Below, in pieces: positions 52,470 through 64,000 of a DNA stretch of 64,000 bases. Each line of letters begins with the position of its first letter. Position 1 is the first letter of the stretch. The translations under genes were made by a program, and so were the position numbers. The stretch is from Pectobacterium carotovorum (GTDB lineage: Bacteria; Pseudomonadota; Gammaproteobacteria; Enterobacterales; Enterobacteriaceae), in the NCBI GenBank assembly GCA_016415585.1, contig CP066552.1, positions 3,906,001 to 3,970,000 of the forward strand, written 5' to 3'. The notes under the pieces were generated by a model that was given only the letters and a program-made list of their open reading frames with translations, was not told the origin of the DNA and did no database searches.

Positions 52470-54200
52470 TTATTCCTCGCTTAATGTCACCACGTCATAC
52501 ATCACGCTGCCGCCTTTTAATTGCAGCGTGATCGTGTTGTTGCCATTTTTCAGAAAGTGGGATGACACAGGGATGCGGGCGATGTGATAACGCCCACTCT
52601 GTAGCGCGCCGCGATAAATGGTTTTGTCGTTTTCGTAAGTCAGCGTTTCCAGCGTGCTGCCGTTCACTGCTATCGCCAGCTGTGGCATGGTCGGCTCACT
52701 CATGCCGCTGTTGCTCGCTGCCGCCAGTGCGATATTCAGGAAATAGGTTTTTTTCTCAGGTTGCAGGGCAAAACGGATGTCCCATTTTCCCGGTTTGGTC
52801 TGCGCGTAATACCAGTCGTGCTGATAGTCGCTGCGGCCAATATCAAACGTCAGATTTGCCGGAACCTCATGCTGCCAGCGGGTGTTGCGTGCCTCATTGC
52901 CAAAACGGAATTCACTCGCCTGCCGATTGGCCTGCCCAATCGCCCAAACAACCGGTTCGGCTTTGGGCAGGGTTATCACAGGCAGCGCTTGCTTATCACC
53001 GGAAACGGACAGCGTTTGTTCTGCCAATATTCCCGGCTGCGTACCGCTGTTGGCGTATACCGCCAGATGGTAATTGCCCGGGCGAACATGAGGGATTACA
53101 AAATTCCCCTGCGTGTCTGTCGTTGCCTGATACGAATAGCCACGGGTTTGCACATCGAACGGTTCATCCAGCGATGACGAAAGCACGACGGTCACCGACT
53201 GCTGGCTGGCAATGCGTCCGCTCACCTGCGTGCGATCGCGCGCATAGCGGGAATCGTTGACCCAGCTGTACGGCCAGTTGACGGCTTCCGTCAGTGCCTG
53301 ACGCTGAGCATCCGCCAGCATTTGTTCGGTATCGCCCTGATTGATATACAGCAGCCACGGACCGTAGAATTTTTTCCAGCCCGGCGGGGCGACCATATCC
53401 GGCGTACCAAAGTGCGAGCCCGTCATGTAGTTCAGAATGATCGCATCCTGATGTACCAGTAGATCCTGCTTGAGCGCATCGCCGGAGAAATACTCCCGAT
53501 TGCCGTGAATCAGCCACGCCCCTACGCCATTGCCAAAAACGCCCCAGAAAGGCGCAGCACGCATATAGCCAGCAAAATCATATTTGGAATAAATGCGGCC
53601 ATCCGGCAATCGCCAGGTTTCATCCTGCACTTTCGGCGACGCTTCAAGCTGGCTGTAGAGTAGCGGTTTTCCTTGACGATCACCGTTGTAGAGATGATCT
53701 AACCGGGCGGGATCGAAGCGATAGACGTTACGCAATTCACTGATTTTAACGTCCTGATTTCCGCTATTCTCGGCCACCACATAGCTATAAAGCCCGCTAA
53801 TGCCGCGGTGCATAATCAGGTGATATTCAAGCCGTAACAGCCCGTCCCGGTCATCGATATAGGCCACATGCGCTATATCTCGATCGTTGCGCAGCACCTC
53901 TACCCGCTCGGGGACAAAATCTTTGACGCCTTTAGCATGAGCATCGTTAATATAGTAATCGAGGTAAGCGCTACGCGTTTTACTCGGGTCACGCGCCGCA
54001 CCAGACAGGTTGGTGACGATATTCTTGCCTCCCGTCACCATGCTCACCGCGCTGCCATCCTCCCCGAACGCGACTTTTAGTAAGCCGTTATCCAGAACGG
54101 TATTCAGACCAGAAACGGATAACGACACCGCATTATCCTGCGCGCTATAGCCATAGGGTGCCAGCATGGCCCCCACCAACAACAAGACAGATCGCTTCAC
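52470..54200 (-). CDS. rhiE: Rhamnogalacturonate lyase, polysaccharide lyase family 4
   Basis: A 576-residue secreted enzyme that cleaves the rhamnose-galacturonate backbone of rhamnogalacturonan I by beta-elimination, releasing fragments for RhiT-type uptake. A signal peptide (MKRSVLLLVGAMLAPYGYSA) is followed by a catalytic beta-sandwich (about 30-340, with YLDYYINDAH, YHLIMHRGISGLYSYV, GPWLLYINQG). A fibronectin-like domain (about 350-430) and a carbohydrate-binding-type C-terminal domain (about 440-576) come next, the normal PL4 order. The length matches RhiE of Dickeya, which leaves the cell by the Out type II system. The start codon is GTG with GAGGG ahead. It is transcribed alone. Confidence 0.95.
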   Translation of the reverse strand: MKRSVLLLVGAMLAPYGYSAQDNAVSLSVSGLNTVLDNGLLKVAFGEDGSAVSMVTGGKNIVTNLSGAARDPSKTRSAYLDYYINDAHAKGVKDFVPERVEVLRNDRDIAHVAYIDDRDGLLRLEYHLIMHRGISGLYSYVVAENSGNQDVKISELRNVYRFDPARLDHLYNGDRQGKPLLYSQLEASPKVQDETWRLPDGRIYSKYDFAGYMRAAPFWGVFGNGVGAWLIHGNREYFSGDALKQDLLVHQDAIILNYMTGSHFGTPDMVAPPGWKKFYGPWLLYINQGDTEQMLADAQRQALTEAVNWPYSWVNDSRYARDRTQVSGRIASQQSVTVVLSSSLDEPFDVQTRGYSYQATTDTQGNFVIPHVRPGNYHLAVYANSGTQPGILAEQTLSVSGDKQALPVITLPKAEPVVWAIGQANRQASEFRFGNEARNTRWQHEVPANLTFDIGRSDYQHDWYYAQTKPGKWDIRFALQPEKKTYFLNIALAAASNSGMSEPTMPQLAIAVNGSTLETLTYENDKTIYRGALQSGRYHIARIPVSSHFLKNGNNTITLQLKGGSVMYDVVTLSEE

Positions 54201-54528: not shown

Positions 54529-56658
54529 TCAGAATGACAGCTCGCGAATCAGTACGGCGGACACCACTTTCCAGCCGCGAATCAGCAGGCTTTGCGCCTC
54601 ACCGTCCATCACCACCGTGCCGCGCAGCACCTGCGGCTGAGCACGATAATCGTCAGGCAGACTGAGCAGCACGCGATAAACGGCCTGTTCAGGATGCAGC
54701 TTGCGCTGTGCGTCGCTCAACGTGGCAATATCACCGCCGTAAATGGATGCCAACTCCGGCGCGGCGTTCAGATCGCGGGTTGCCGTGCTGGCAATCTCCA
54801 CAATAGTGAGCGGCAGCGACGAGCGGCTCACGTCCTGTAAATAAAACGTCCCCTTTGCGCCCGTGCGGAGCCGCTGCCAGTCTTTTTCCGACACGAACGC
54901 TTCCACCAGCCCGCCGGTTGGCTTGGTGACGACCGCCAGCCATTCGCCCTGCCCCAGCCACTCGCTCGTTTCCAGCGGCGTCGCCATATCGGCCACCACG
55001 CCGTCTATAGGCGCACGCACCGTCAGTTGTTCCGACTGACGCTGCAATACCTGTAGCTTTTTCAGCGCCGCTTCGTGTTCCTGCTTCACCCGCTGATGAT
55101 CGCCAGCCGCTTCCTTGTTGAATACCTGAAAGGTGCTTTGCCAGTTCAATGTAGCAATCTGACGTTCCAGCTGTTGCCGTTCATACGCCAGCGCATCAGA
55201 CGACAGCGTAAACAGCGTCTGCCCGGCGTTCACGGCCTGACCAACCCGTACGTCAATGCGCTGAATCATCGCAGGTACGGGCATATACAGGCTGCTTTGC
55301 TGTTCTGCCCGCAGCAGCGCCGGGGCGTACACGCTGCGCTGCCAGGGAATCATCAGCAAGAGCAGAACCACAGCGCTCACAGTCAGCGTTGTCGTCATAT
55401 TACGGTTCATACGATAATCCTTACGGCGTTTACTCCACTCGCGTACTTCATTCACCACTGGCATCACCACGAAGTAGCCGATTTCAATCGCGAAAAGCAG
55501 CATCCCCAGCAGTTTGAACGTCATGTGGTAAACCAAAATCGCGATACCGGTAAACAGGAAGAAACGGTATATCCACACTGCAAAGGCATAGCCCACCAGC
55601 GTACGTTGCAGCCAGCGGGGAAAATGCTCCGGCGGTGCATCACCTAAGCCGAACAGCCATTCCCGCATCTGCCAGCGGCCGATAGAAAAGCCTCGGTTTT
55701 GCAGGTTCGGCATCTGTAATCCATCGGAAAGCAGGAAATAGCCGTCGAAGCGCATCAGCGGGCTGAGGTTAATCGCCAGCGTCATAATCCAGGTTGTCGT
55801 CGCCAGCATAAACGCGGCGCTGCGCAGCATGCCGTCCGGCAAGAAGCTCCATGCCAGCGTCGCCCATGCTGCCAGCACCAGTTCGGTCATCATGCCCGCT
55901 GCACCAATCGCCATCCTCTGCCGACGGCGGGTGAGTTTCCACGAGCCGGACGTATCGGTGTACAGCACCGGCATCATCACCAGAAACGCGACGCCCATGG
56001 TGGCAACCCGCGCACCAAAGCGCTTGCAGGTGTAGGCGTGGCCGAACTCATGCAGAATCTTGGTAAAGCACAGCGTCAGCCCCGCCAGCGCTGCGCCTTC
56101 CAGCGTGAAGAAGTGCAGAAACGTATGCTTGAACGTTTCCCACTGGCGTCCGGCGAGGAAGAGCCCCAGCACGGCCACCAGCAGCGTCAGCTTGAGAAAA
56201 GTCCGGCTGAAAAACGGCTCGATCCACGGCAGTGTCGCGCCCAAAAAGCGATCGGGGTGCCATAAGGGAATGCGAAAAAATAGATAGTTCTTCAACAGCT
56301 TGCGCCAGATCGAAACGCGCGACTGTTCCACCTGACGAGAAAACTGCGCCATTGCCTCATCGCCAGAAACCCGCGTCAGGCTGTTGGCCTGCAAGAAACG
56401 ATTGAAGTACTGCACATCGCTGTCATCAAGTATCAGCGCAGAAGTCTGGTTAACCTCGGCAACAATTTGCGCGGCGTTCCCCATCGACCAACGCGATAGC
56501 ATCGCCATTTCCGCCCAACCGATACGAAAATAGAGGCCACGCAGCGGATCTTCCAGCGTCCAGCTAGGCGATCCGTCACGGTTAGCGGGCCCAGCATGCA
56601 GGATCAGTTCATCGCGCAGCGGGCTGAGCCCAGCGGCCGGCGTCGTACCTCCGGCCAT
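54529..56658 (-). CDS. M50 (site-2-protease-like) metalloprotease fused to an HlyD/lipoyl domain
   Basis: A 709-residue polytopic inner-membrane protein. Residues 1-110 form a soluble N-terminal domain (SWTLEDPLRGLYFRIGWAEM) of the kind seen in front of M50 proteases. The membrane core has the zinc motif H203-E-F-G-H207 in ILHEFGHAYTCKRFGA and the third ligand motif N297-LSP-LMRFD305-G. After a last helix (about 435-450) comes a biotinyl-lipoyl/HlyD region (about 455-700) with PVPAMIQRIDVRVGQAVNAG, a helical hairpin, and VRAPIDGVVADMA. It is the last gene of a coupled run with two HlyD adaptors and a TolC. It may replace the missing ABC component, process the exported giant protein, or both; this is inference. 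Confidence 0.9.
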   Translation of the reverse strand: MAGGTTPAAGLSPLRDELILHAGPANRDGSPSWTLEDPLRGLYFRIGWAEMAMLSRWSMGNAAQIVAEVNQTSALILDDSDVQYFNRFLQANSLTRVSGDEAMAQFSRQVEQSRVSIWRKLLKNYLFFRIPLWHPDRFLGATLPWIEPFFSRTFLKLTLLVAVLGLFLAGRQWETFKHTFLHFFTLEGAALAGLTLCFTKILHEFGHAYTCKRFGARVATMGVAFLVMMPVLYTDTSGSWKLTRRRQRMAIGAAGMMTELVLAAWATLAWSFLPDGMLRSAAFMLATTTWIMTLAINLSPLMRFDGYFLLSDGLQMPNLQNRGFSIGRWQMREWLFGLGDAPPEHFPRWLQRTLVGYAFAVWIYRFFLFTGIAILVYHMTFKLLGMLLFAIEIGYFVVMPVVNEVREWSKRRKDYRMNRNMTTTLTVSAVVLLLLMIPWQRSVYAPALLRAEQQSSLYMPVPAMIQRIDVRVGQAVNAGQTLFTLSSDALAYERQQLERQIATLNWQSTFQVFNKEAAGDHQRVKQEHEAALKKLQVLQRQSEQLTVRAPIDGVVADMATPLETSEWLGQGEWLAVVTKPTGGLVEAFVSEKDWQRLRTGAKGTFYLQDVSRSSLPLTIVEIASTATRDLNAAPELASIYGGDIATLSDAQRKLHPEQAVYRVLLSLPDDYRAQPQVLRGTVVMDGEAQSLLIRGWKVVSAVLIRELSF

Positions 56659-56660
56659 CG

Positions 56661-58016
56661 TTAGACGCCCAACCAGACGCGCATTGACGCCAGCGGTTTG
56701 CGCAGCAGGTAAACGAACAGCACCGTGCGTTTACCGTACAGCTTGGCGGTCCCTTTCAGGCCCACGCGCAGCTGCGGATCATCCTGTGTAAAGCGTGCGC
56801 GCAACCGATAGGCCATCACATTGTCCGGCGTCGGCGCGGCGCGATAGCCAATCTGCTCCAGCCGCGCGTCCTGTGCCGAATTCGGCGCCACATTGAGGAA
56901 CAGGCGCACGTACGCGCCGTTTTCCAGCGCAATCGCATCCGCCGCTGGCAATTGGATCTCCAGCTCAACATCGTGCGGATCGGCGATCATCATGATACGT
57001 TCCCCCACCGCCACCGAGCGCCCAATCCAGTCGCTGCTATCGTCAAAAATCGCCACACCATCACGCTGAGAAACAAGCTGCATGCGTTCCTGCTGACGTT
57101 GCAGAAAGTCCATCTCGCTCTGCGCCTGTTCGCGGCGGCTTTGCAGCACGGCCAGACTGGCCTTGCTATTGGCATCGAACAACGCCTGCTGCTGTGCCTG
57201 ACGATACTGAGCATCAGCGGTAGCAAAAGCCTGTCGGGCCGATTCCAGTCGGTTTTCCAGTTCGCGCACGTCCAGTCGCACCAGCGGCTGATTGGCGCTA
57301 ACGGCCTGATTAGGCCGTACCAGAATGTCATCCACCACGCCCGCCACGGGGGCGCGCACCATCACCGGACGATGCGCGACGATCTCAGCCGGAGCCAGCA
57401 CCGACTGGCGAACGGGGATCAATAAGATCAGCGCCAGCGCCACGATCCCAGCCAGAATCAAACGACGCTTCTTCGGGCTGGTATTCGTCTGCCGCCGACG
57501 TTGTTTCTGCAAACTCGCCCACGCGTGAGCATACGCTTCCGCCAGTTTTTCCAGCAGCACGATCTCGGCTGGCAGCCACGCGTTGTCCCGTGCTAACACC
57601 AGTACAAGCGGCGTCTCGCCCTGCGCTAAACGCAGCGGTAGCCAGAGTAAAAATTCCGGCAGATGTTCCTGCCACAAAATCTGATCATCGGCAGGCAGCT
57701 CGCGGCATTGCAGCGCCTGCGTTTGACGCCCCTCTTCCTGCCACTGACGGCACAGGCGGCTAAATTCGGTACAAAACGGCGCGTTGTGATCGAGCGAGGC
57801 CAGCCCGGAAGCCGCCTGCAAGCGCCGTTTATCACAGTCCCACAGCAGCGCCTGCCGATACTTCACTAAATTATGCGTCTCGTTGACGATGAAAAACGCC
57901 AGCTCATCCAGCGTTTCACGCGCTCTGGCACGGCTTTGCAGCTGCAACAGCTCGGCCAGCAGTGCCAGTCGTGTATCCTGTTCAGTTTGTGCTGCTGTCG
58001 TGTTCCGTTCGGTCAT
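56661..58016 (-). CDS. HlyD-family adaptor with an N-terminal cytoplasmic GAF-like domain
   Basis: A 451-residue inner-membrane adaptor. Residues 15-170 form a soluble domain with a GAF-like helix-strand pattern (LDELAFFIVNETHNLVKYRQ, LLWLPLRLAQGETPLVLVLA) that would face the cytoplasm. One membrane helix spans about 186-202 (LILAGIVALALILLIPV). The periplasmic part has the lipoyl halves (VMVRAPVAGVVDDILVRPNQ), a coiled-coil hairpin (about 250-320) and a beta-barrel. Ordinary HlyD adaptors have only a short cytoplasmic tail, so the N-domain is unusual and could sense a signal or recruit substrate. Its stop is two bases before the M50 gene, and its start overlaps the smaller adaptor by four bases. 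Confidence 0.85.
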   Translation of the reverse strand: MTERNTTAAQTEQDTRLALLAELLQLQSRARARETLDELAFFIVNETHNLVKYRQALLWDCDKRRLQAASGLASLDHNAPFCTEFSRLCRQWQEEGRQTQALQCRELPADDQILWQEHLPEFLLWLPLRLAQGETPLVLVLARDNAWLPAEIVLLEKLAEAYAHAWASLQKQRRRQTNTSPKKRRLILAGIVALALILLIPVRQSVLAPAEIVAHRPVMVRAPVAGVVDDILVRPNQAVSANQPLVRLDVRELENRLESARQAFATADAQYRQAQQQALFDANSKASLAVLQSRREQAQSEMDFLQRQQERMQLVSQRDGVAIFDDSSDWIGRSVAVGERIMMIADPHDVELEIQLPAADAIALENGAYVRLFLNVAPNSAQDARLEQIGYRAAPTPDNVMAYRLRARFTQDDPQLRVGLKGTAKLYGKRTVLFVYLLRKPLASMRVWLGV

Positions 58017-58768
58017 GGCGATACGCTGCCGGCATCAGGCGGTACAATTTGCGCCACACCGCTCATGCCCGGCAACAATCCAGCGGTGGATTGGGTAATC
58101 CGACCAAAGACTTTTACCGACTGACTGACCGGATCGATCGCCGAAGAAAGGCGGCTGATTTCCGCCGGATAGCTCAGACCAGTTTCATCCAGCGTGACCT
58201 GAAAGGCGCTGCCCTGCTTTAACCATACCAGCCAGCGCGACGGCACGATCATTTCCAGCTCAAACGCGCTGTCGTCATAAATCGCCAGCAGCTCTTTGCC
58301 TTCCGGCACGGATTCCCAACGCTTCACCTTGGTTTCCGTTACGCGACCAGAGAATGGGGCTTTGATGGCACAGCGTTGCAGCATGGCGCGATTGACGCCG
58401 CTTTCGGCCTGCGCCATCGACACCGACGATCGCGCCTGATCGACATCCGACAGGCTGATCGAATTGAGCTTATCCAGCCGATCGGCAATCGCCAGCTTCT
58501 TACGCGCGGCATTCTCTGCGGCATTTGAGTAGTTCAGCTTTTCGCGCAGCACGGTGCAGTCAAACGTCACCAGCGTATCGCCCTGCTTGAAGTGTTCACC
58601 CTCTTTCACCGCAATATCCGTCACTTTCCCCGCAATTTCGCTGGATAACACGGTATAGCGCTGTGCGCTAAGCTGTACGCGAATGTCTCCCGTTGTCGCA
58701 GCCTGCCCCAACAGGGGCAGACCTAACACACTGACCAGCAATAGCGGACGCATTATGCCGAAAGCCAT
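58013..58768 (-). CDS. Periplasmic HlyD/RND-type adaptor protein
   Basis: A 251-residue membrane-fusion protein. The N-terminal hydrophobic signal (MRPLLLVSVLGLPLLGQAAT) is followed by a lipoyl half (LSSEIAGKVTDIAVKEGEHF), a coiled-coil hairpin (about 75-130), the second lipoyl half (IKAPFSGRVTETKVKRWESV) and a beta-barrel. It is shorter than typical RND adaptors (about 370 residues) because the membrane-proximal domain is reduced. The start overlaps the stop of the TolC gene, giving tight coupling. It would bridge the inner-membrane parts and the TolC-like channel. Confidence 0.88.
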   Translation of the reverse strand: MAFGIMRPLLLVSVLGLPLLGQAATTGDIRVQLSAQRYTVLSSEIAGKVTDIAVKEGEHFKQGDTLVTFDCTVLREKLNYSNAAENAARKKLAIADRLDKLNSISLSDVDQARSSVSMAQAESGVNRAMLQRCAIKAPFSGRVTETKVKRWESVPEGKELLAIYDDSAFELEMIVPSRWLVWLKQGSAFQVTLDETGLSYPAEISRLSSAIDPVSQSVKVFGRITQSTAGLLPGMSGVAQIVPPDAGSVSP

Positions 58769-60573
58769 TAACGCGAACCTCCCGCCTGTAGGGATTGCAG
58801 GTTATCCCACATATCCGTGTTCACCACGCGATAAGGCTTACCCGCGCCAGCCGATGATGTCGCAGCAGACGAGGCAATCGGCGTCACAACAGGTGCTACG
58901 GATGGAGTGGATGCTGTTTTAGCCGAAGCCGTCGTGGTAGCAGGCGTAGCTGGTGTAGACAGGGACAAACGAGGTACCGCAACGCCGCCTTTCTCAAGGT
59001 TACCCGTGGTGAGGGCAATTGAGCTGCTCAGCGCCGCCAGACTGACATCGTTCACGTTATCCGGCAGCACATCCAACCCAGCGGCCTGATACACCGCGCC
59101 CAGCGCGTTCTGCACATCGGCAAAGCTACGGTCACGCGCGCGGGTGGTCAGAATGGTTTCCGTGCTGACGCGCACCTGCTCCATCTGCGTTTCGGCACGA
59201 TGCTGTACGCTGAGCGTGGTTTGATTAAGGATGCCACGCTGAATTCGTGCCAGTTCCTGATAGCGACCGAACATCCGCGTGCTCTGCTGATATTCCTGCC
59301 AGGCGACATTCACCTGCGTCAATACCGCCATGCGCAGTGCCTGACGGCGCACCTCCGCCAGATCTTCATTCGCCTGTCCGGCACGTTTCACCGATGACCA
59401 CGACAACACGTTCAGCAGGTTGCCGCTGACCTGAACGCCCGCGTTCGCCCACTGGTGATTAACCAGATAGCTGTTGCTATCACCGTTGATACCGGCAAAC
59501 AGTGACACGCCTGGCAGCAGGCGCAGCAGCGATTTACGGGTTTCCAGTACGCTATTGCGTGCCAGATAGCTCTCTTCACGCACTTCCGGGCGTTTAACCA
59601 TCGAGAAGTTTTCCAAATCGTCGAGCGAGTAGGCCATCTTCGGCGCGACTAGGCTGCTTTCGCTCGGCACGACGACGTCATATTTGCTCGACGGTGGCAG
59701 GTTCATCAGCGCGGCCAGACGGGATTTCGCCACTACCAGATCGCTGTCGACAATCTCCAACTGGCGCACCATCTCCAGCATGTTCTTCTGGAAACGCAGC
59801 GCTTCAACCGGTGCCAACAGGCGTTGCTGTTCGGTCTGACGCGCATATTCCAGCGCCTGACGCGCCTGCGTCAGCGCGGTGGTCACTTCCGGCTGCAAAC
59901 GCTGCGCCGTGGCCGCTTCCCAATAAGCGGTACGCACCTGACGGGTAATATCGGCCACCACGCGACGACGACGTTCTTCCGCCGCCAGCGATTTGTTCGC
60001 CTGTACTTTGGCGTTGAAATAGCTGATACCGAAGTCCAGCACGTTCCAGCTCATCGTCAGATCGGCGGTGCGCATGGTCTGATCCTGACTGGTGGACGCT
60101 TCCAGTGACTGCCGTCCAGTGGTGACCGACTGGCTGCTGGAACCGGCCACGTTATCGCGGGTTTGTAACCCAGCGCGCGCGGTCAGTTTTGGTAACAGCA
60201 TATCCAGATTCTGTACGCCCAACAGGTCATCTTCCATCGCCTGTTCCATCAGCGCGACCCGCTGTTGCAGGTTATATTTCAGCGCACGGGCAATCGCCTC
60301 ATCCAGCGTGATCGTACCGCGTACCGGTTCTTGATTGGCGAACATCTGCGTTCTGTCGCTCAGCGCCTGTGCGACCTGCTGTTCTATCGTAACCGGCTCA
60401 GGTTTGACGGCACAGCCAGCCAGCCCCAGACAGGCAAGAGCTACTGCGATCCGTAACGCCCGAGAACCCGCGGTGCGTGGTGTAGCCTCGTGTTGAACGT
60501 TCTGCTGCTGACTGTCGTGTTGCTGGCTATCCCAGAAATGCGCTATGTGCTGATTCACCCGGGTTCTCCCCAT
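58768..60573 (-). CDS. TolC-family outer-membrane lipoprotein
   Basis: A 601-residue outer-membrane efflux protein. Residues 38-54 form a lipoprotein signal with the lipobox LAGC54 (preceded by RIAVALACLG), after an unusually long charged leader of about 37 residues. Two TolC/OEP repeats follow (about 90-300 and 320-510), rich in long heptad helices (RALKYNLQQRVALMEQAMED, ARQALEYARQTEQQRLLAPV). The C-terminal 70 residues are Ala/Thr/Ser-rich and low in complexity. A GTG at 60558 is an alternative start that would shorten the leader. It supplies the outer-membrane exit of this export locus. Confidence 0.88.
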   Translation of the reverse strand: MGRTRVNQHIAHFWDSQQHDSQQQNVQHEATPRTAGSRALRIAVALACLGLAGCAVKPEPVTIEQQVAQALSDRTQMFANQEPVRGTITLDEAIARALKYNLQQRVALMEQAMEDDLLGVQNLDMLLPKLTARAGLQTRDNVAGSSSQSVTTGRQSLEASTSQDQTMRTADLTMSWNVLDFGISYFNAKVQANKSLAAEERRRRVVADITRQVRTAYWEAATAQRLQPEVTTALTQARQALEYARQTEQQRLLAPVEALRFQKNMLEMVRQLEIVDSDLVVAKSRLAALMNLPPSSKYDVVVPSESSLVAPKMAYSLDDLENFSMVKRPEVREESYLARNSVLETRKSLLRLLPGVSLFAGINGDSNSYLVNHQWANAGVQVSGNLLNVLSWSSVKRAGQANEDLAEVRRQALRMAVLTQVNVAWQEYQQSTRMFGRYQELARIQRGILNQTTLSVQHRAETQMEQVRVSTETILTTRARDRSFADVQNALGAVYQAAGLDVLPDNVNDVSLAALSSSIALTTGNLEKGGVAVPRLSLSTPATPATTTASAKTASTPSVAPVVTPIASSAATSSAGAGKPYRVVNTDMWDNLQSLQAGGSR

Positions 60574-60598
60574 CTTCTATTTGTCTGTTCCCTTCATC

Positions 60599-60629
60599 TT
60601 GCAGGCGGTGGGTTGGTTACCGCCTGCAA
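60599..60629 (-). repeat. Hairpin between the giant protein gene and the tolC-like gene
   Basis: TTGCAGGCGGT and ACCGCCTGCAA are perfect 11-base inverted arms around a 9-base loop, in the 114-base spacer of the minus-strand operon. No T-run follows on the minus strand, so it may be an attenuator or mRNA-stability element that sets the ratio of substrate to machinery. Confidence 0.6.
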
Positions 60630-60687
60630 ACGCCCGGGTTAGTGGTTAAGTAATAAAATCTCGTCTCGGTATTCGATCTGCACAGCG

Positions 60688-63600
60688 TTACGCGCGCAGG
60701 CTGCTCAGCTCACTGAGCGCCGCCAGCAGGGCATCCTGTTCAGGCTGATGCTGACGCAGCTGTTCGGTAAAGGCGGTTTTCCCCGCTGGCACTAACCGCT
60801 CTGCATCCCGGTTTTCAGCCGGGTCTGCGGCAGTGGGAACAACAGAGTGTGCAGGTAATTGCATCGCGCCACGGTCAGTTGTCATCTCTGCGCCATCGCC
60901 CTGCCCGGTTTGCAGCGTAATCGGTACGATCCGGCTGGTGCCGTCTGCGGCCTGCGCTTTCAGCGCCAGTTGGATCTGATTAACCTGCACTGCACTGGCA
61001 TCGGTAATGCGCACCACGCCACTGCGGGCATCGAACTGCACCCACGCAGGTAGAGGACGCCCGTTCGCCAGTTGCAGCGTCAGCGTGGCATTGCCTTCAC
61101 GCACGCTGAACATGCGCTGCGGCAGGCTAAAGGCGAGTGCGCCGGAGGCATCCGGCTGTAACGTGCCCTGCACGCTGCTGAAAGCCGATTCCAGCGACGT
61201 TGTCTGACCGCGCACGCTCAGGAACAGATTGGAATCAGCCGAACGCAGCGCGGCGTTATCGCGAAGGGACGCCTCAGCGCGTGAAGAGAAGTTGACCTGC
61301 TCCAGCGTCGGCATCAGCAATGACATCACCGGATCGAGCACCCAAGGAGCATCCGACTGGCGTGACGTATCGGCATCACGTTGGCGTACAGGTTCAGTGA
61401 CGATGTTGCTTGGTAGCGGTTGTGCTTCTGGGCGAGACAGATCGGCGACAATCGCCCCCAACGGCTGTTCGCGTTCTCTGTCACTCGAATCAACGGACAG
61501 GTTTGCGCCCTGCTGCACCAGTATCACCGGTGCCGCGGTTGCGGTGTTATCGGGGTTCACTGGCTCTGTTGGTGTACCAGGATCGACTGGCGTCGAGGCA
61601 GCATTGATCGTCAGCACCACATTGAGTGCCGTCGCGTTACCCGCGCTGTCTCTGGCGGTAATCGTCAGGTTGAACGTTCCCGCCGTTGACGGCGTGCCGC
61701 TGAGCGTCCGTGTTGCACTATCAAAACGCACGCCTTCTGGCAGTTGCGCATCATCAACGGTAAACGTCAGCGCATTATTTTCAGGATCGGTAAATAGCGT
61801 ACTCGGTAAGGTATAAGACCAGTTGGTGCCAGCCTGTGCCGTTGGCGGTGTGAACTGCTCTGCATGACCAACTGGCGGCAGGTTCACCTCTCTCGACAGC
61901 GTAACGTCGAGCACCTGCGGAGCGGAATCAGCTGCGCCGTCATTAAGCACCAGCGTCAGCGATGTCGCGCTCCCCGTCAGCTGTGCGCTCGTCGCCCAGC
62001 TAATCTGGCGAGCCAGCGCTGTCGCATCCGCACGAGAAAGGGCAGCAGTGAAGGTCACGGTGAGCTTACCGTCCGCCTGCGCGAAGGTGGCTACCGCTTG
62101 CCCGTCTTTGCTAATGACGCCATTCGCCAAGGTGAAACCGTTACCCGCAGTAAAATCGAAGCGATCGCTTGTTGAGGCCGTTTCACCGCGCTGTAGCGTG
62201 ATGGAGGCACCCTGATAATTTCCCGCCCCGCCGTTCAGTGCATCCAGTTCTGCATCACTGAGAACGATAGAAGGCGCGACAATCACCGCTGGGCCATCAA
62301 CGCGATAAACCGGCAGGCGTGAAGCCTCATCCAGCACCGACACGCCGTTGCCGAGCGTAATCAGACCACCGTCAACCGGCAGCAGATGAGTGAAGCCTGT
62401 ACCCTCGTTTTTCAGCGTATCGAGTTTTGTCAGCGTCTCGCCGTTCAATACATAGCGAGTGAGCGCCCCGTCGCTTTGCGTGACGTACAGCACCCGCGCA
62501 TCCGCAGCAAGGGCGATATGATTCACGGTGCCTTCTGCCGCCACGCGAGCAAGGTGTGTAAAGGTTCCCGTAGCGGTGTCCAGCGAGAAGGCATCGATCT
62601 GCCCTGCACTGGCGACAAAGATGCTGCGGCCATCGGCGCTGACCGTGAGTTGCTCCAGCCCGGATAACGTCACCGAATTTCCTTGCGCATCCGTAAACTG
62701 GCGCACATATCCCAATAGCGTCGGCTCACCGCTATCGCCACGCGTATACACAATCAGCGATGAACCATCATTAGCATTCGTAGTAACAAATACCAGATTG
62801 CCACGGCTGACTATTTCGCTGGATTGCCACAGGTAAGGTTCACTCCACATACCGCCTTCGATAAGCCCAGCATAAGCAAGCTTGCCTGTCGCTGAATCGC
62901 GGGTAAACCAGAGAAGGTTGTAGTTGTTGATGAGATACAGCGTCTTGCCATCATCAGACAGAGCGATCCCTTGGATGTCGTAAAGGTTGCTATTGTGTAT
63001 CTCGTAGTCATCAACGATGGTTTCTTTATGTTCCAGATTGCCTTCACTATTCCGGCTAAACCAAACAATCGCATTGCCGTCGGCACGCAGCGCATACACA
63101 CTGTTGCCATCGGCAGAAACCTGTAGCTGGCTTATTCCTGTCACGCCCTCTGCCGCCGCGAAGGTGCGCACATAGGTCAATTCGCCGCTGTCTGCATCTC
63201 GCTGGAATAACGCAATCGCGCCTTTATCATCGCTGACATACAGCGACAGCCCATCGGTCGTACGGGCGGCAGCCGTCAACGTGCCCAGCCCGCTAATCGC
63301 GGTGTAGGTATTCACCAAACGCAGTTCATCGGCAGAAAGCACTGGATCGTTCGCCACGACAGGCGTGTCGTTGATCGCGGTAATCGCTACCGACAAGGCC
63401 GTCACCTGAGACTCCAGATAGCGATCGGACAGCGTCACCGTCACTGCAACCTGCGCGGCTGGCGTACGGCTGTCGCTGGCGTAGGTAATCTGGCGCAGCG
63501 TATTCTGCACGTCTTCCGTGGTCGGAATTGTGCCTGCATTCGCGTTGAAGCGAATCGTCAGTACGCCATCCTGATTACTAACCTGAGCAATGGTGACGCC

Positions 63601-64000
63601 GTCTTTCTGAAGCGTATTGCCGGATAACGTCAGACCGTTTTCAGCACTGAAGCCCAGCTTATCCAGCGCCGTTTTACCGTCGCCCAGCGTAATCTTCAGC
63701 GTCGCGCCGTCGTAGTTGCCCTTGCCACCGTTGAGTTTGTCCATCTGTGCATCAGACACCGTCGCGTCCGGTGCCAGCACTATAGGGTCAGCGCGTTCGG
63801 TATACGTCGGCGTCGTCCCCGGAACCGTGATAATCGGCGCGGTATTGGTTTCTGCCGCAGGCACTAGCGTCAGCGTAATCGCCTGTTCCAGCGTGGTTTC
63901 CGGTGCAGTGCCGTTATAATCATTTTCCTTGATCATCAAGGTGACATGGCGTTCACCACTGGGAGCGCTGCCCAGATAGTTGTAGCCGATGCTGTCAATA
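60688..64000 (-). CDS. Large repeat-containing surface/secreted protein, C-terminal part (incomplete at window end)
   Basis: The reading frame stays open to base 64000 (it reads IDSIGYNYLGSAPSGERHVT before the first in-frame Met), so about 1100 C-terminal residues of a longer protein are visible. In order there is a cadherin-like module (VSDAQMDKLNGGKGNYDGAT), a beta-propeller of about seven YVTN-like blades (LQVSADGNSVYALRADGN and similar), and a second copy of the cadherin-like module (LSDAELDALNGGAGNYQGAS). A putative Ig (He-PIG) domain (LPEGVRFDSATRTLSGTPST) and a C-terminal region ending in ALLAALSELSSLRA complete it. No RTX nonapeptides are seen. It is first in a coupled run with TolC, HlyD and M50 genes, which makes it the likely exported substrate. 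Confidence 0.88.
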   Translation of the reverse strand, partial: IDSIGYNYLGSAPSGERHVTLMIKENDYNGTAPETTLEQAITLTLVPAAETNTAPIITVPGTTPTYTERADPIVLAPDATVSDAQMDKLNGGKGNYDGATLKITLGDGKTALDKLGFSAENGLTLSGNTLQKDGVTIAQVSNQDGVLTIRFNANAGTIPTTEDVQNTLRQITYASDSRTPAAQVAVTVTLSDRYLESQVTALSVAITAINDTPVVANDPVLSADELRLVNTYTAISGLGTLTAAARTTDGLSLYVSDDKGAIALFQRDADSGELTYVRTFAAAEGVTGISQLQVSADGNSVYALRADGNAIVWFSRNSEGNLEHKETIVDDYEIHNSNLYDIQGIALSDDGKTLYLINNYNLLWFTRDSATGKLAYAGLIEGGMWSEPYLWQSSEIVSRGNLVFVTTNANDGSSLIVYTRGDSGEPTLLGYVRQFTDAQGNSVTLSGLEQLTVSADGRSIFVASAGQIDAFSLDTATGTFTHLARVAAEGTVNHIALAADARVLYVTQSDGALTRYVLNGETLTKLDTLKNEGTGFTHLLPVDGGLITLGNGVSVLDEASRLPVYRVDGPAVIVAPSIVLSDAELDALNGGAGNYQGASITLQRGETASTSDRFDFTAGNGFTLANGVISKDGQAVATFAQADGKLTVTFTAALSRADATALARQISWATSAQLTGSATSLTLVLNDGAADSAPQVLDVTLSREVNLPPVGHAEQFTPPTAQAGTNWSYTLPSTLFTDPENNALTFTVDDAQLPEGVRFDSATRTLSGTPSTAGTFNLTITARDSAGNATALNVVLTINAASTPVDPGTPTEPVNPDNTATAAPVILVQQGANLSVDSSDREREQPLGAIVADLSRPEAQPLPSNIVTEPVRQRDADTSRQSDAPWVLDPVMSLLMPTLEQVNFSSRAEASLRDNAALRSADSNLFLSVRGQTTSLESAFSSVQGTLQPDASGALAFSLPQRMFSVREGNATLTLQLANGRPLPAWVQFDARSGVVRITDASAVQVNQIQLALKAQAADGTSRIVPITLQTGQGDGAEMTTDRGAMQLPAHSVVPTAADPAENRDAERLVPAGKTAFTEQLRQHQPEQDALLAALSELSSLRA

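Follow-up and report, generated by a model that had tools for sequence, protein, structure and literature searches.

HlyD-type adaptors and TolC-type outer membrane factors often travel with a cognate ABC partner. A gene cluster of Pectobacterium carotovorum combines such components with a giant surface protein and a membrane protease in a neighbourhood where searches found no ABC exporter gene. The cluster occupies the end of the window, the 64,000-nucleotide stretch of DNA analysed here (GenBank assembly GCA_016415585.1, contig CP066552.1, positions 3,906,001 to 3,970,000 of the forward strand). As the initial annotation had described, five genes run in one direction and the last four are coupled: the ORF listing places the giant, TolC, HlyD-1, HlyD-2 and the M50-HlyD fusion on the minus strand, with a gap of 114 bp between the giant and TolC followed by junctions of -4 to +2 bp (TolC and HlyD-1 overlap by 1 bp, HlyD-1 and HlyD-2 overlap by 4 bp, and 2 bp separate HlyD-2 from the fusion gene). 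Pfam matches to M50, HlyD and OEP in the cluster proteins are all above cut-off. Both of the HlyD adaptors originally counted are present, but the HlyD-type proteins number three once the fusion is included. The reading favoured here, which we consider probable, is that the cluster exports giant surface proteins with a LEPR leader by a pathway that is RRE-guided and independent of ABC transporters. Its features are listed below in window coordinates.

54529..56658, minus strand: RRE-M50-HlyD fusion, 709 aa (Pfam; AF2 model with mean pLDDT 91)
56368..56631, minus strand: RRE (RiPP recognition element) fold, residues 10-97 of the fusion (AF2 model; PDB matches)
56038..56052, minus strand: HEFGH zinc-protease motif, residues 203-207 (HExxH in 80/80 relatives)
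55741..55746, minus strand: Asp305-Gly306 of the second site-2-protease motif, N..P....DG (80/80 relatives)
54532..55347, minus strand: HlyD/MacA-type adaptor part of the fusion, residues 438-709
56661..58016, minus strand: HlyD-2, an adaptor of 451 aa whose N-terminal domain resembles GAF (Pfam HlyD)
58013..58768, minus strand: HlyD-1 periplasmic adaptor, 251 aa (Pfam HlyD_3, 73 bits; NCBIfam RND_mfp, 118.7 bits against a cut-off of 94.9)
58768..60573, minus strand: TolC-type outer membrane factor, 601 aa (Pfam OEP, 74 bits)
60688..64000, minus strand: C-terminal part of the giant (ORF listing), whose full length is 3245 aa and whose start, at window-equivalent position 70425, lies outside the window
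60748..60783, minus strand: C-terminal motif GKTAFTEQLRQH of the giant, beginning 31 residues from its end (cross-validated motif of LEPR giants)

The fusion protein is computed to consist of an RRE fold, an M50 membrane protease with some seven helices and a periplasmic HlyD adaptor, in that order. The HExxH membrane metalloprotease fused to HlyD that had been proposed from the sequence is borne out by Pfam matches to both M50 and HlyD, and the HEFGH motif and its partner NLSPLMRFDG are intact. With HExxH, N..P....DG and a Pfam match above cut-off, the protein has the marks of an M50 site-2 protease; in the AF2 model these motifs sit in membrane helices, within helix 186-213 and at the end of helix 277-297. 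The N-terminal region is modelled as three strands followed by three helices, the RRE fold, with matches in the PDB. Loop charges, read by eye, place this domain on the cytoplasmic side. Sequence profiles detect the domain sparsely: Pfam PqqD leaves the window fusion unmatched and, among 53 family members, matches five with E<=0.1, the strongest at 0.016, and in a distant branch of the family, branch II, one member scores above cut-off (L095) and another just below (L093). Foldseek alone returned no match at E<=0.001, and the best 50 structure matches of the full-length model, filled by its adaptor part, include no M50 structure. HlyD_3 is found in all 19 fusion members scanned. Of the NCBIfam models for proteases, those of the daptide and YydH/LiaK proteases come nearest to the M50 core (NF041824, 147 bits; NF058609, 31 bits; both below cut-off). 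The NF041824 match spans residues 119-399, at 147 bits against a cut-off of 300, and recurs in a paralogue (residues 26-387, 140 bits against 300) that belongs to a second copy of the system at about 0.67-0.68 Mb on the same chromosome. A search of viral contigs returned no match.

The giant carries Lactonase-type beta-propellers and He_PIG domains by Pfam. It had been said to lack RTX repeats, in agreement with Pfam, which lists none at E<=1e-3 in either the window giant or the second-copy giant; RTX repeats, which many but not all type I substrates have, have been reported for a Vibrio LEPR-XLL giant. At the start of the proposed substrates is a basic leader that contains LEPRxMFD-(G/A)A. 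In the window giant this is LEPRMMFD, residues 35-42 and outside the window, where the 24-position N-terminal motif model LEPR-8K (NF012209) scores 18.5 bits against a cut-off of 17 (E 0.0123). The second-copy giant carries LEARMMFD and is absent among the LEPR-8K matches listed. Across 67 LEPR leaders, a list that retains one doubtful row (L095_121), hydrophobicity is weak (median best 13-residue hydropathy 1.22), the window leader being the highest at 1.94, and an Asp in mid-leader is conserved in 62. The open frames of LEPR giants reach 19,427 aa. These proteins also share a conserved motif near the C-terminus, in most cases 20-50 residues before the last one, which was cross-validated on 49 giants with the window giant in the held-out half; the several giants without it were all kept in the counts, and they include Nitrospira ORFs whose tails may not be true protein ends. 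Type I secretion signals are uncleaved and lie near the C-terminal end of a protein, and this motif could be a type I-like signal.

A survey of genomes links the fusion, the adaptors, TolC and the leader, by raw counts that carry no phylogenetic correction. The M50-HlyD fusion occurs in 90 of 398 Pseudomonadota genomes. LEPR-8K reaches E<=0.003 in 49 genomes, 47 of which belong to these 90; the scoring for the fusion took no more than two candidates from each genome, so M50-negative calls are uncertain. LEPR-8K at E<=0.003 is missing from 43 of the 90 M50-positive genomes, the window genome (E 0.0123) included. On DUF4347 proteins the leader, sought with a regular expression tuned on sequences already seen, is present at 27 of 30 loci from M50-positive genomes versus 2 of 30 from M50-negative genomes. 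Both of the latter come from one genome that is 57% complete (G189), and the negative set contains a locus with no DUF4347 match on repeat search (L118) and two cut at the 5' end (L125, L127). The expression missed three positive loci (L151, L157 and L159), one of which has a near variant of the leader (LESRLMYD in L157) and another a frame that starts four residues before the DUF4347 domain (L159). As a marker of the substrate, DUF4347 is imperfect, being absent in 15 of the 90 M50-positive genomes and present in 19 M50-negative ones. Five M50-positive genomes have neither LEPR-8K (E<=0.003) nor DUF4347, and in two of these (G222 and G298) the locus holds a giant that either is of the window type or bears the leader.

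Because longest-frame ORF calling misreads high-GC loci, 80 loci were rescanned by profile searches. HlyD-2 adjoins the fusion in 76 of the 80. Among the 46 loci of at least 18 kb, HlyD-2 is found in 45, HlyD in 44 and TolC in 38; a leader-bearing ORF is present in 18 and any giant in 25, many giants being out of reach of loci with 10 kb flanks. The initial annotation had given one adaptor an extra domain, and the N-terminal domain of HlyD-2 does look GAF-like: GAF is matched at E<=0.01 in 6 of 58 family members (best 2e-6) and, in branch II, at 6.6e-12 in one HlyD-2 member (L076), with no match at that threshold in the window protein. By eye, the N-terminus of HlyD-1 resembles a signal peptide and TolC has a lipobox-like LAGC.

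Eleven ABC exporters from this genome, used as phmmer queries (E<=1e-5), gave no hit to any ORF in the window, in the next 32 kb or in the two regions of 20 kb examined at the second copy, which agrees with the absence first noted for the locus. Nor does such a gene continue the operon past the window edge, the finding named at the outset as one that would overturn the proposal: a Tad pilus operon lies upstream, its TadG gene ending 19 bp before the giant starts, and a two-component system and housekeeping genes are also present. A type I system with its ABC gene just outside the window was discarded on these grounds. Among the matches listed, the nearest to ABC_membrane is at 3.51 Mb, about 0.45 Mb from the cluster. 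In the 46 long loci, any ABC-type match occurs in seven and a full ABC exporter (>150 bits) in one, on the opposite strand; another 60 loci include two with an ORF of 220-237 aa bearing ABC ATPase motifs (L054, L062).

The giant may nonetheless be a conventional type I substrate, served by an ABC transporter from another locus, in which case the cluster would supply adaptors, TolC and a processing protease only. Four ABC exporters, two of LssB type and two of PrtD type, are encoded at other sites of the window genome, so the argument against this route comes solely from comparing genomes. Of 69 M50-positive genomes, 54 have one or more of HlyB, PrtD and LssB over cut-off, and the C-terminal motif of LEPR giants lies near where type I signals lie. 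Against this stand the single opposite-strand exporter of the long neighbourhoods, the tendency of cognate HlyD and TolC to travel with their ABC partner, and the 15 of 69 genomes that have none of the three exporters, 10 of which are also free of near matches to LssB (limit 1e-110) or PrtD (limit 1e-80). In nine of these ten (all except G088) the HlyB model has a match that reaches E<=1e-100 but stays below cut-off; 11 of 14 named control genomes also reach this E-value. Eight of the nine matches have scores that are seen for housekeeping exporters too, whereas the ninth, in G082, scores 437 bits in a frame of 767 aa and may represent a genuine exporter. At least eight of the ten genomes have LEPR giants, or seven of nine with G082 set aside. 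Genome comparison thus supports the view that the system would not require an ABC transporter, and secretion by a type I machine acting in trans is rather improbable as a general answer, although most of the genomes have an exporter that could serve. Less so, but still unlikely, is that the giant crosses the inner membrane by Sec and the outer membrane by TolC and HlyD, with the RRE-M50 part confined to leader release or quality control. In branch II, 15 of 20 genomes have a second, shorter SecA-like gene next to the fusion; none of the 67 leaders is more hydrophobic than that of the window giant; and about five DUF4347 proteins of M50-negative genomes appear by eye to start with Sec-like signal peptides, so that the DUF4347 family can apparently use Sec. 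However, LEPR leaders are as a group weakly hydrophobic (median 1.22, a figure that has no Sec control beside it) and have the mid-leader Asp in 62 of 67, and the protease is fused to an adaptor, HlyD_3 being found in 19 of 19 members. The second SecA is missing from the other five branch II genomes, from 26 of 30 branch I-only genomes and from all 29 M50-negative genomes, although these 79 genomes were hand-picked and taxonomy confounds the comparison, the negatives being mostly from the window's own order or DUF4347-positive and branch II mostly from other classes. GEGKT and DEAD motifs are intact in all four of the SecA-like ATPases read. The window genome has one SecA match at E<=1e-20 and no second; with its ABC exporters all elsewhere, no motor is encoded with the system in branch I.

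Two further readings concern the protease. That the TolC, HlyD and M50 proteins export a small modified peptide of daptide or epipeptide type, the giant being unrelated operon cargo, is very unlikely: the M50 core is nearest the daptide and YydH/LiaK proteases, though below both cut-offs, and the RRE fold is typical of RiPP pathways, but no RiPP-modifying enzyme was noticed on reading the cluster ORFs, and the leader sits on giants and tracks the protease across genomes. Lap systems keep giant adhesins under proteolytic control, and the M50 protease might by analogy free a surface-retained giant as LapG frees LapA, with no part in export. LapG is periplasmic, whereas the active-site motifs here are modelled within membrane helices and the RRE appears by eye to be cytoplasmic, which makes this reading the most remote of all.

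For RRE-guided export we propose a sequence of steps in which fold, leader linkage and gene linkage are computed, and in which we infer binding, cleavage, passage and motor. The RRE would bind the LEPR leader in the cytoplasm and hand the chain to the M50 membrane domain, from which it would cross through a conduit built from the dedicated TolC and the three HlyD-type proteins, which may form a mixed hexamer. The protease would remove the leader, with a cut that daptide leaders suggest might fall directly behind LEPRxMFD, and this removal might commit the chain to export or release it. The GAF-like domain of HlyD-2 may serve as a cytoplasmic regulatory input. Least certain is the motor, possibly the dedicated SecA-like ATPase in branch II and, by extension only, housekeeping SecA or the proton-motive force in the window's branch. 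The giant would be displayed here together with the Tad pilus whose operon precedes its gene. The distinct, ABC-less export or display pathway put forward in the initial annotation is thus well supported comparatively at its core, but the features that suggest a mechanism, namely the RRE fold on the protease, the LEPR leader and the SecA-like ATPase of the distant branch, had been missed, as had the Tad operon.

Like type I systems (HlyB/HlyD/TolC and LapB-type), the cluster places an HlyD-type adaptor, a dedicated TolC and a giant, repetitive proposed substrate in one operon. Unlike them, it has no ABC gene but three adaptors, one fused to an RRE-bearing membrane protease, and its proposed substrates have a conserved N-terminal leader and, in the two giants scanned, no RTX repeats. 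The RRE-M50 architecture is shared with the daptide leader peptidase MpaP/DapP, which an excerpt of PMC10036551 describes as having an RRE N-terminal to a site-2 protease; the daptide leader residues given there include L-D-P, where L-E-P is found here. In contrast to MpaP/DapP, the fusion has an HlyD adaptor, its substrate frames extend to 19,427 aa rather than being short peptides, no daptide-modifying enzymes were noticed, and the NF041824 equivalog cut-off is missed in both copies. The EpeP system of Bacillus subtilis, one of the YydH/LiaK epipeptide type, has a short peptide substrate and is not known to have an adaptor or TolC. In the part of PMC10885120 available, the M50 protease EpeP is thought to perform both cleavage and export, and epeP deletion did not fully abolish the epipeptide. 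Accessory Sec, with its SecA2, resembles branch II in having a second, shorter SecA-like ATPase; it differs in that the branch II gene adjoins that of the RRE-M50-HlyD protein, and the window genome has no second SecA. The N-terminal parts of the proposed substrates are covered by the annotation families LEPR-8K (NF012209) and DUF4347 (PF14252), for which no export partner is named among the entries listed, and LEPR-XLL receives passing mention in the literature. The matches listed from the open-licence literature, in a search that left the SecA link aside, gave no description of the system and no account of how LEPR giants exit the cell. The export route thus appears widespread and undescribed, the Pectobacterium cluster being one example. 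We lean slightly towards regarding it as a new class of secretion system in Pseudomonadota, Nitrospirota and Desulfobacterota, defined by an RRE-read leader, cleavage by a fused protease, a three-adaptor TolC conduit, no ABC transporter and, in one branch, a dedicated SecA-like ATPase.

In Pectobacterium, Tad pilus mutants are reported to show reduced maceration of potato tubers (excerpt of PMC3767616), and since the cluster follows the Tad pilus operon it may bear on this phenotype. If the proposal is correct, TolC-type export could work without an ABC, RND or MFS pump, and RREs, known from peptide modification, would also serve as receptors for secretion signals. The leader and its receptor would then form a testable pair for the display of giant proteins, and the way in which leaders are read in peptide-antibiotic pathways would extend to the sorting of some of the largest proteins in bacteria.

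The five open reading frames that the initial annotation placed in this cluster (54529..64000) are confirmed, all on the minus strand of a 4.74 Mb single-contig genome (window = C1:3906001-3970000) whose nearest named relatives at the protein level belong to Pectobacterium. They are closely spaced: neighbouring frames overlap by 1 or 4 bp or are separated by 2 or 114 bp. Pfam matches over cut-off identify M50, HlyD and OEP domains among the encoded proteins, and the M50 and an HlyD adaptor domain stand with an RRE fold, seen in the structural model, in a single 709 aa polypeptide (the fusion). The giant protein measures 3245 aa when the segment past the window edge is counted, and has Pfam matches to Lactonase-type beta-propellers and He_PIG domains; at E<=1e-3 Pfam lists no RTX repeats in it, in agreement with the initial annotation. 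The reported lack of an ABC exporter also holds, as no such frame was found in the window, in the adjoining 32 kb or around the second copy of the system described below. Just downstream of the cluster, on the same strand, a 576 aa frame (window 52470-54200, minus strand) resembles a rhamnogalacturonate lyase by eye. The region upstream of the giant gene contains the following feature:

Window-equivalent 70445-85567 (loci L005 and L009), beyond the window: Tad/Flp pilus operon and two-component system

TadG, named from Pfam, ends 19 bp upstream of the giant's start. The operon also comprises TadF, E, D, C, B and A, a TadZ-like protein, RcpA, RcpC, a prepilin peptidase and an Flp pilin, and beyond it lies the two-component system (all these named by eye). 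Nykyri et al. (2013; PMC3767616) describe this Tad cluster of Pectobacterium together with its regulator, and a similar cluster in Marinomonas; neither HlyD nor TolC is mentioned in the main text of that paper.

A second set of the system lies at about 0.67-0.68 Mb of the same chromosome, and encodes an HlyD protein, a GAF-like HlyD, an M50-HlyD fusion, a tail-collar protein, a DUF4347 giant of 2624 aa and TolC. The two fusions share 40% identity and both keep the HExxH and DG motifs. A protein of the tail-collar kind is located as follows:

L006:7459-8313: phage-tail-collar-like protein (Pfam Collar)

Searched with phmmer, proteins resembling it recurrently adjoin the DUF4347-type version of the system (loci L042, L043, L048, L049, L202, L208, L215, L222, L225, L226, L228, L232, L233 and L237).

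The fusion was found at E<=1e-20 in 90 of 398 Pseudomonadota genomes (M50-positive genomes); because at most two candidates were scored per genome, the fusion-negative status of the others is not certain. Among genome contigs, at least 583 relatives were confirmed, and the best 80 of these were retained for neighbourhood analysis. Their hosts include Pectobacterium, Serratia, Pantoea, Pseudomonas, Bordetella, Azospirillum, Marinomonas, Alteromonas, Nitrospira, Magnetococcales and desulfobacteria, among others. Within these best 80, HExxH and N..P....DG are both intact in every member, and HlyD-2, the adaptor with a GAF-like N-terminal domain, adjoins the fusion in 76 loci. The 46 of these loci that extend to at least 18 kb carry HlyD-2 (45/46), HlyD (44/46) and TolC (38/46), with any ABC-type match in seven and a full ABC exporter (>150 bits) in one, where it adjoins a weakly matching HlyD-like frame:

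L162:13710-17149, minus strand: full ABC exporter of Serratia marcescens with the HlyD-like frame, next to the system and on the strand opposite to it

Tad genes occur in two of the 46, from P. aroidearum (L161) and Marinomonas rhizomae (L172), and in both a leader-bearing giant directly follows TadG, as in the window cluster.

Across genomes, the giants are linked to the fusion by their N-terminal LEPRxMFD-type leader. The N-terminus of the window giant scores 18.5 bits (E 0.0123) with the 24-position NCBIfam model LEPR-8K (NF012209), for which the cut-off is 17 bits. At E<=0.003 the model matches in 49 of 398 genomes, 47 of them M50-positive; of the remaining two, one match is a 64 aa frame and the other genome is 86% complete. 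This threshold is not reached in 43 of the 90 M50-positive genomes, that of the window included. The LEPR-8K motif also occurs in a 19,427 aa open frame (G061:C115:112865 region). DUF4347 (75/90 M50-positive vs 19/308 M50-negative genomes) serves as an inner control, since it is found both with and without the fusion. The leader precedes it in 27 of 30 loci from M50-positive genomes (the best locus from each of 30, out of 41 searched among the 75) vs 2 of 30 from the 19 M50-negative genomes, both in one genome that is 57% complete; the regular expression for the leader was composed after examples had been seen, and fixes L, E and R but not the residues downstream of the motif. Among 67 distinct leaders, the first of those residues is G or A in 66 and the second is A in 58.

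The strongest rival explanation is that inner-membrane crossing is powered by Sec, with the protease a bystander. The leaders carry a mean net charge of about +4 ahead of the motif, and their median best 13-residue hydropathy of 1.22 (n=67) is taken, by a general threshold, as weaker than that of a Sec signal; the window giant's value of 1.94 is the highest of the 67. In M50-negative genomes, about five of the DUF4347 proteins open instead, by eye, with Sec-signal-like N-termini. At the other end, a motif close to G-K-P/T-A-F/L-S/T-x-Q-L emerged when the C-terminal ends of 49 non-redundant giants were aligned; it mostly lies 20 to 50 residues before the terminus and is present in the window giant as GKTAFTEQLRQH. 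When one half of the giants served for training and the other for scoring, 76% (n=25) and 71% (n=24) of the scored giants lay above the 95th percentile of internal windows. This motif may act as another sorting signal, or else may speak for a type I-like route.

Such a route could draw on an exporter encoded in trans, and the window genome does possess two LssB-type and two PrtD-type exporters away from the cluster. A Vibrio LEPR-XLL giant is reported to carry RTX repeats, which are typical of type I substrates though not universal among them. Of the 90 M50-positive genomes, 69 reach 95% completeness or more; in these, HlyB exceeds cut-off in 18, PrtD in 26 and LssB in 40, with none of the three in 15. 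Ten of the 15 likewise show no LssB at 1e-110 and no PrtD at 1e-80:

Genomes without a clear type I ABC transporter: G004, G023, G048, G064, G082, G088, G122, G144, G213, G298

Sub-cut-off matches to the HlyB model occur in nine of the ten, and at the same level in 11 of 14 named control genomes; that of G082 (437 bits) may be a real exporter. As LEPR giants are found in at least eight of the ten (7/9 without G082), the system seems able to persist in the absence of a clear type I ABC transporter.

A different candidate motor adjoins the fusion in branch II, the distant relatives whose M50 matches are weaker (E about 1e-76 to 1e-47). Two of its clusters also encode SapC-family proteins:

L095:11096-13105, L093:6939-8960 and L096:11982-13964: short SecA-like ATPase adjoining the RRE-M50-HlyD gene
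L096:11118-11963 and L076:6059-6952: SapC-family protein (PF07277)

In the three ATPases scanned (660-673 aa), the domains recognised are SecA DEAD (328-335 bits), the preprotein-binding domain and a P-loop domain. Each of four proteins read for motifs keeps GEGKT and the DEAD box. In a hand-picked sample of 79 genomes, whose M50-negative members are taxonomically unlike those of branch II, a second SecA-like gene was found in 15/20 branch II, 4/30 branch I-only (the window's branch) and 0/29 M50-negative genomes. Its matched stretch lies 206 to 1227 bp from that of the fusion in the 15 branch II genomes, although G291 and G069 show it fragmented or incomplete, and G002 gives a weak match. The window genome has a single SecA match.

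Together, sequence and fold support the RRE-M50-HlyD architecture, the giant's leader and the linkage of both across genomes, along with a dedicated TolC and adaptors and no ABC transporter in the cluster. In the mechanism proposed, the RRE would bind the leader, cleavage would occur near LEPRxMFD, and the giant would pass via a mixed adaptor-TolC conduit, with the GAF-like domain as a putative regulator and the SecA-like ATPase as the candidate motor in branch II. The defining feature of a type I secretion system, a dedicated ABC transporter, was sought in and around the cluster and not found. Among the matches listed from open-licence full-text literature, there is no account of LEPR-8K export, DUF4347 secretion or an RRE-M50-HlyD protein. 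The components themselves are already known; it is their combination that fits no named secretion system among those compared.
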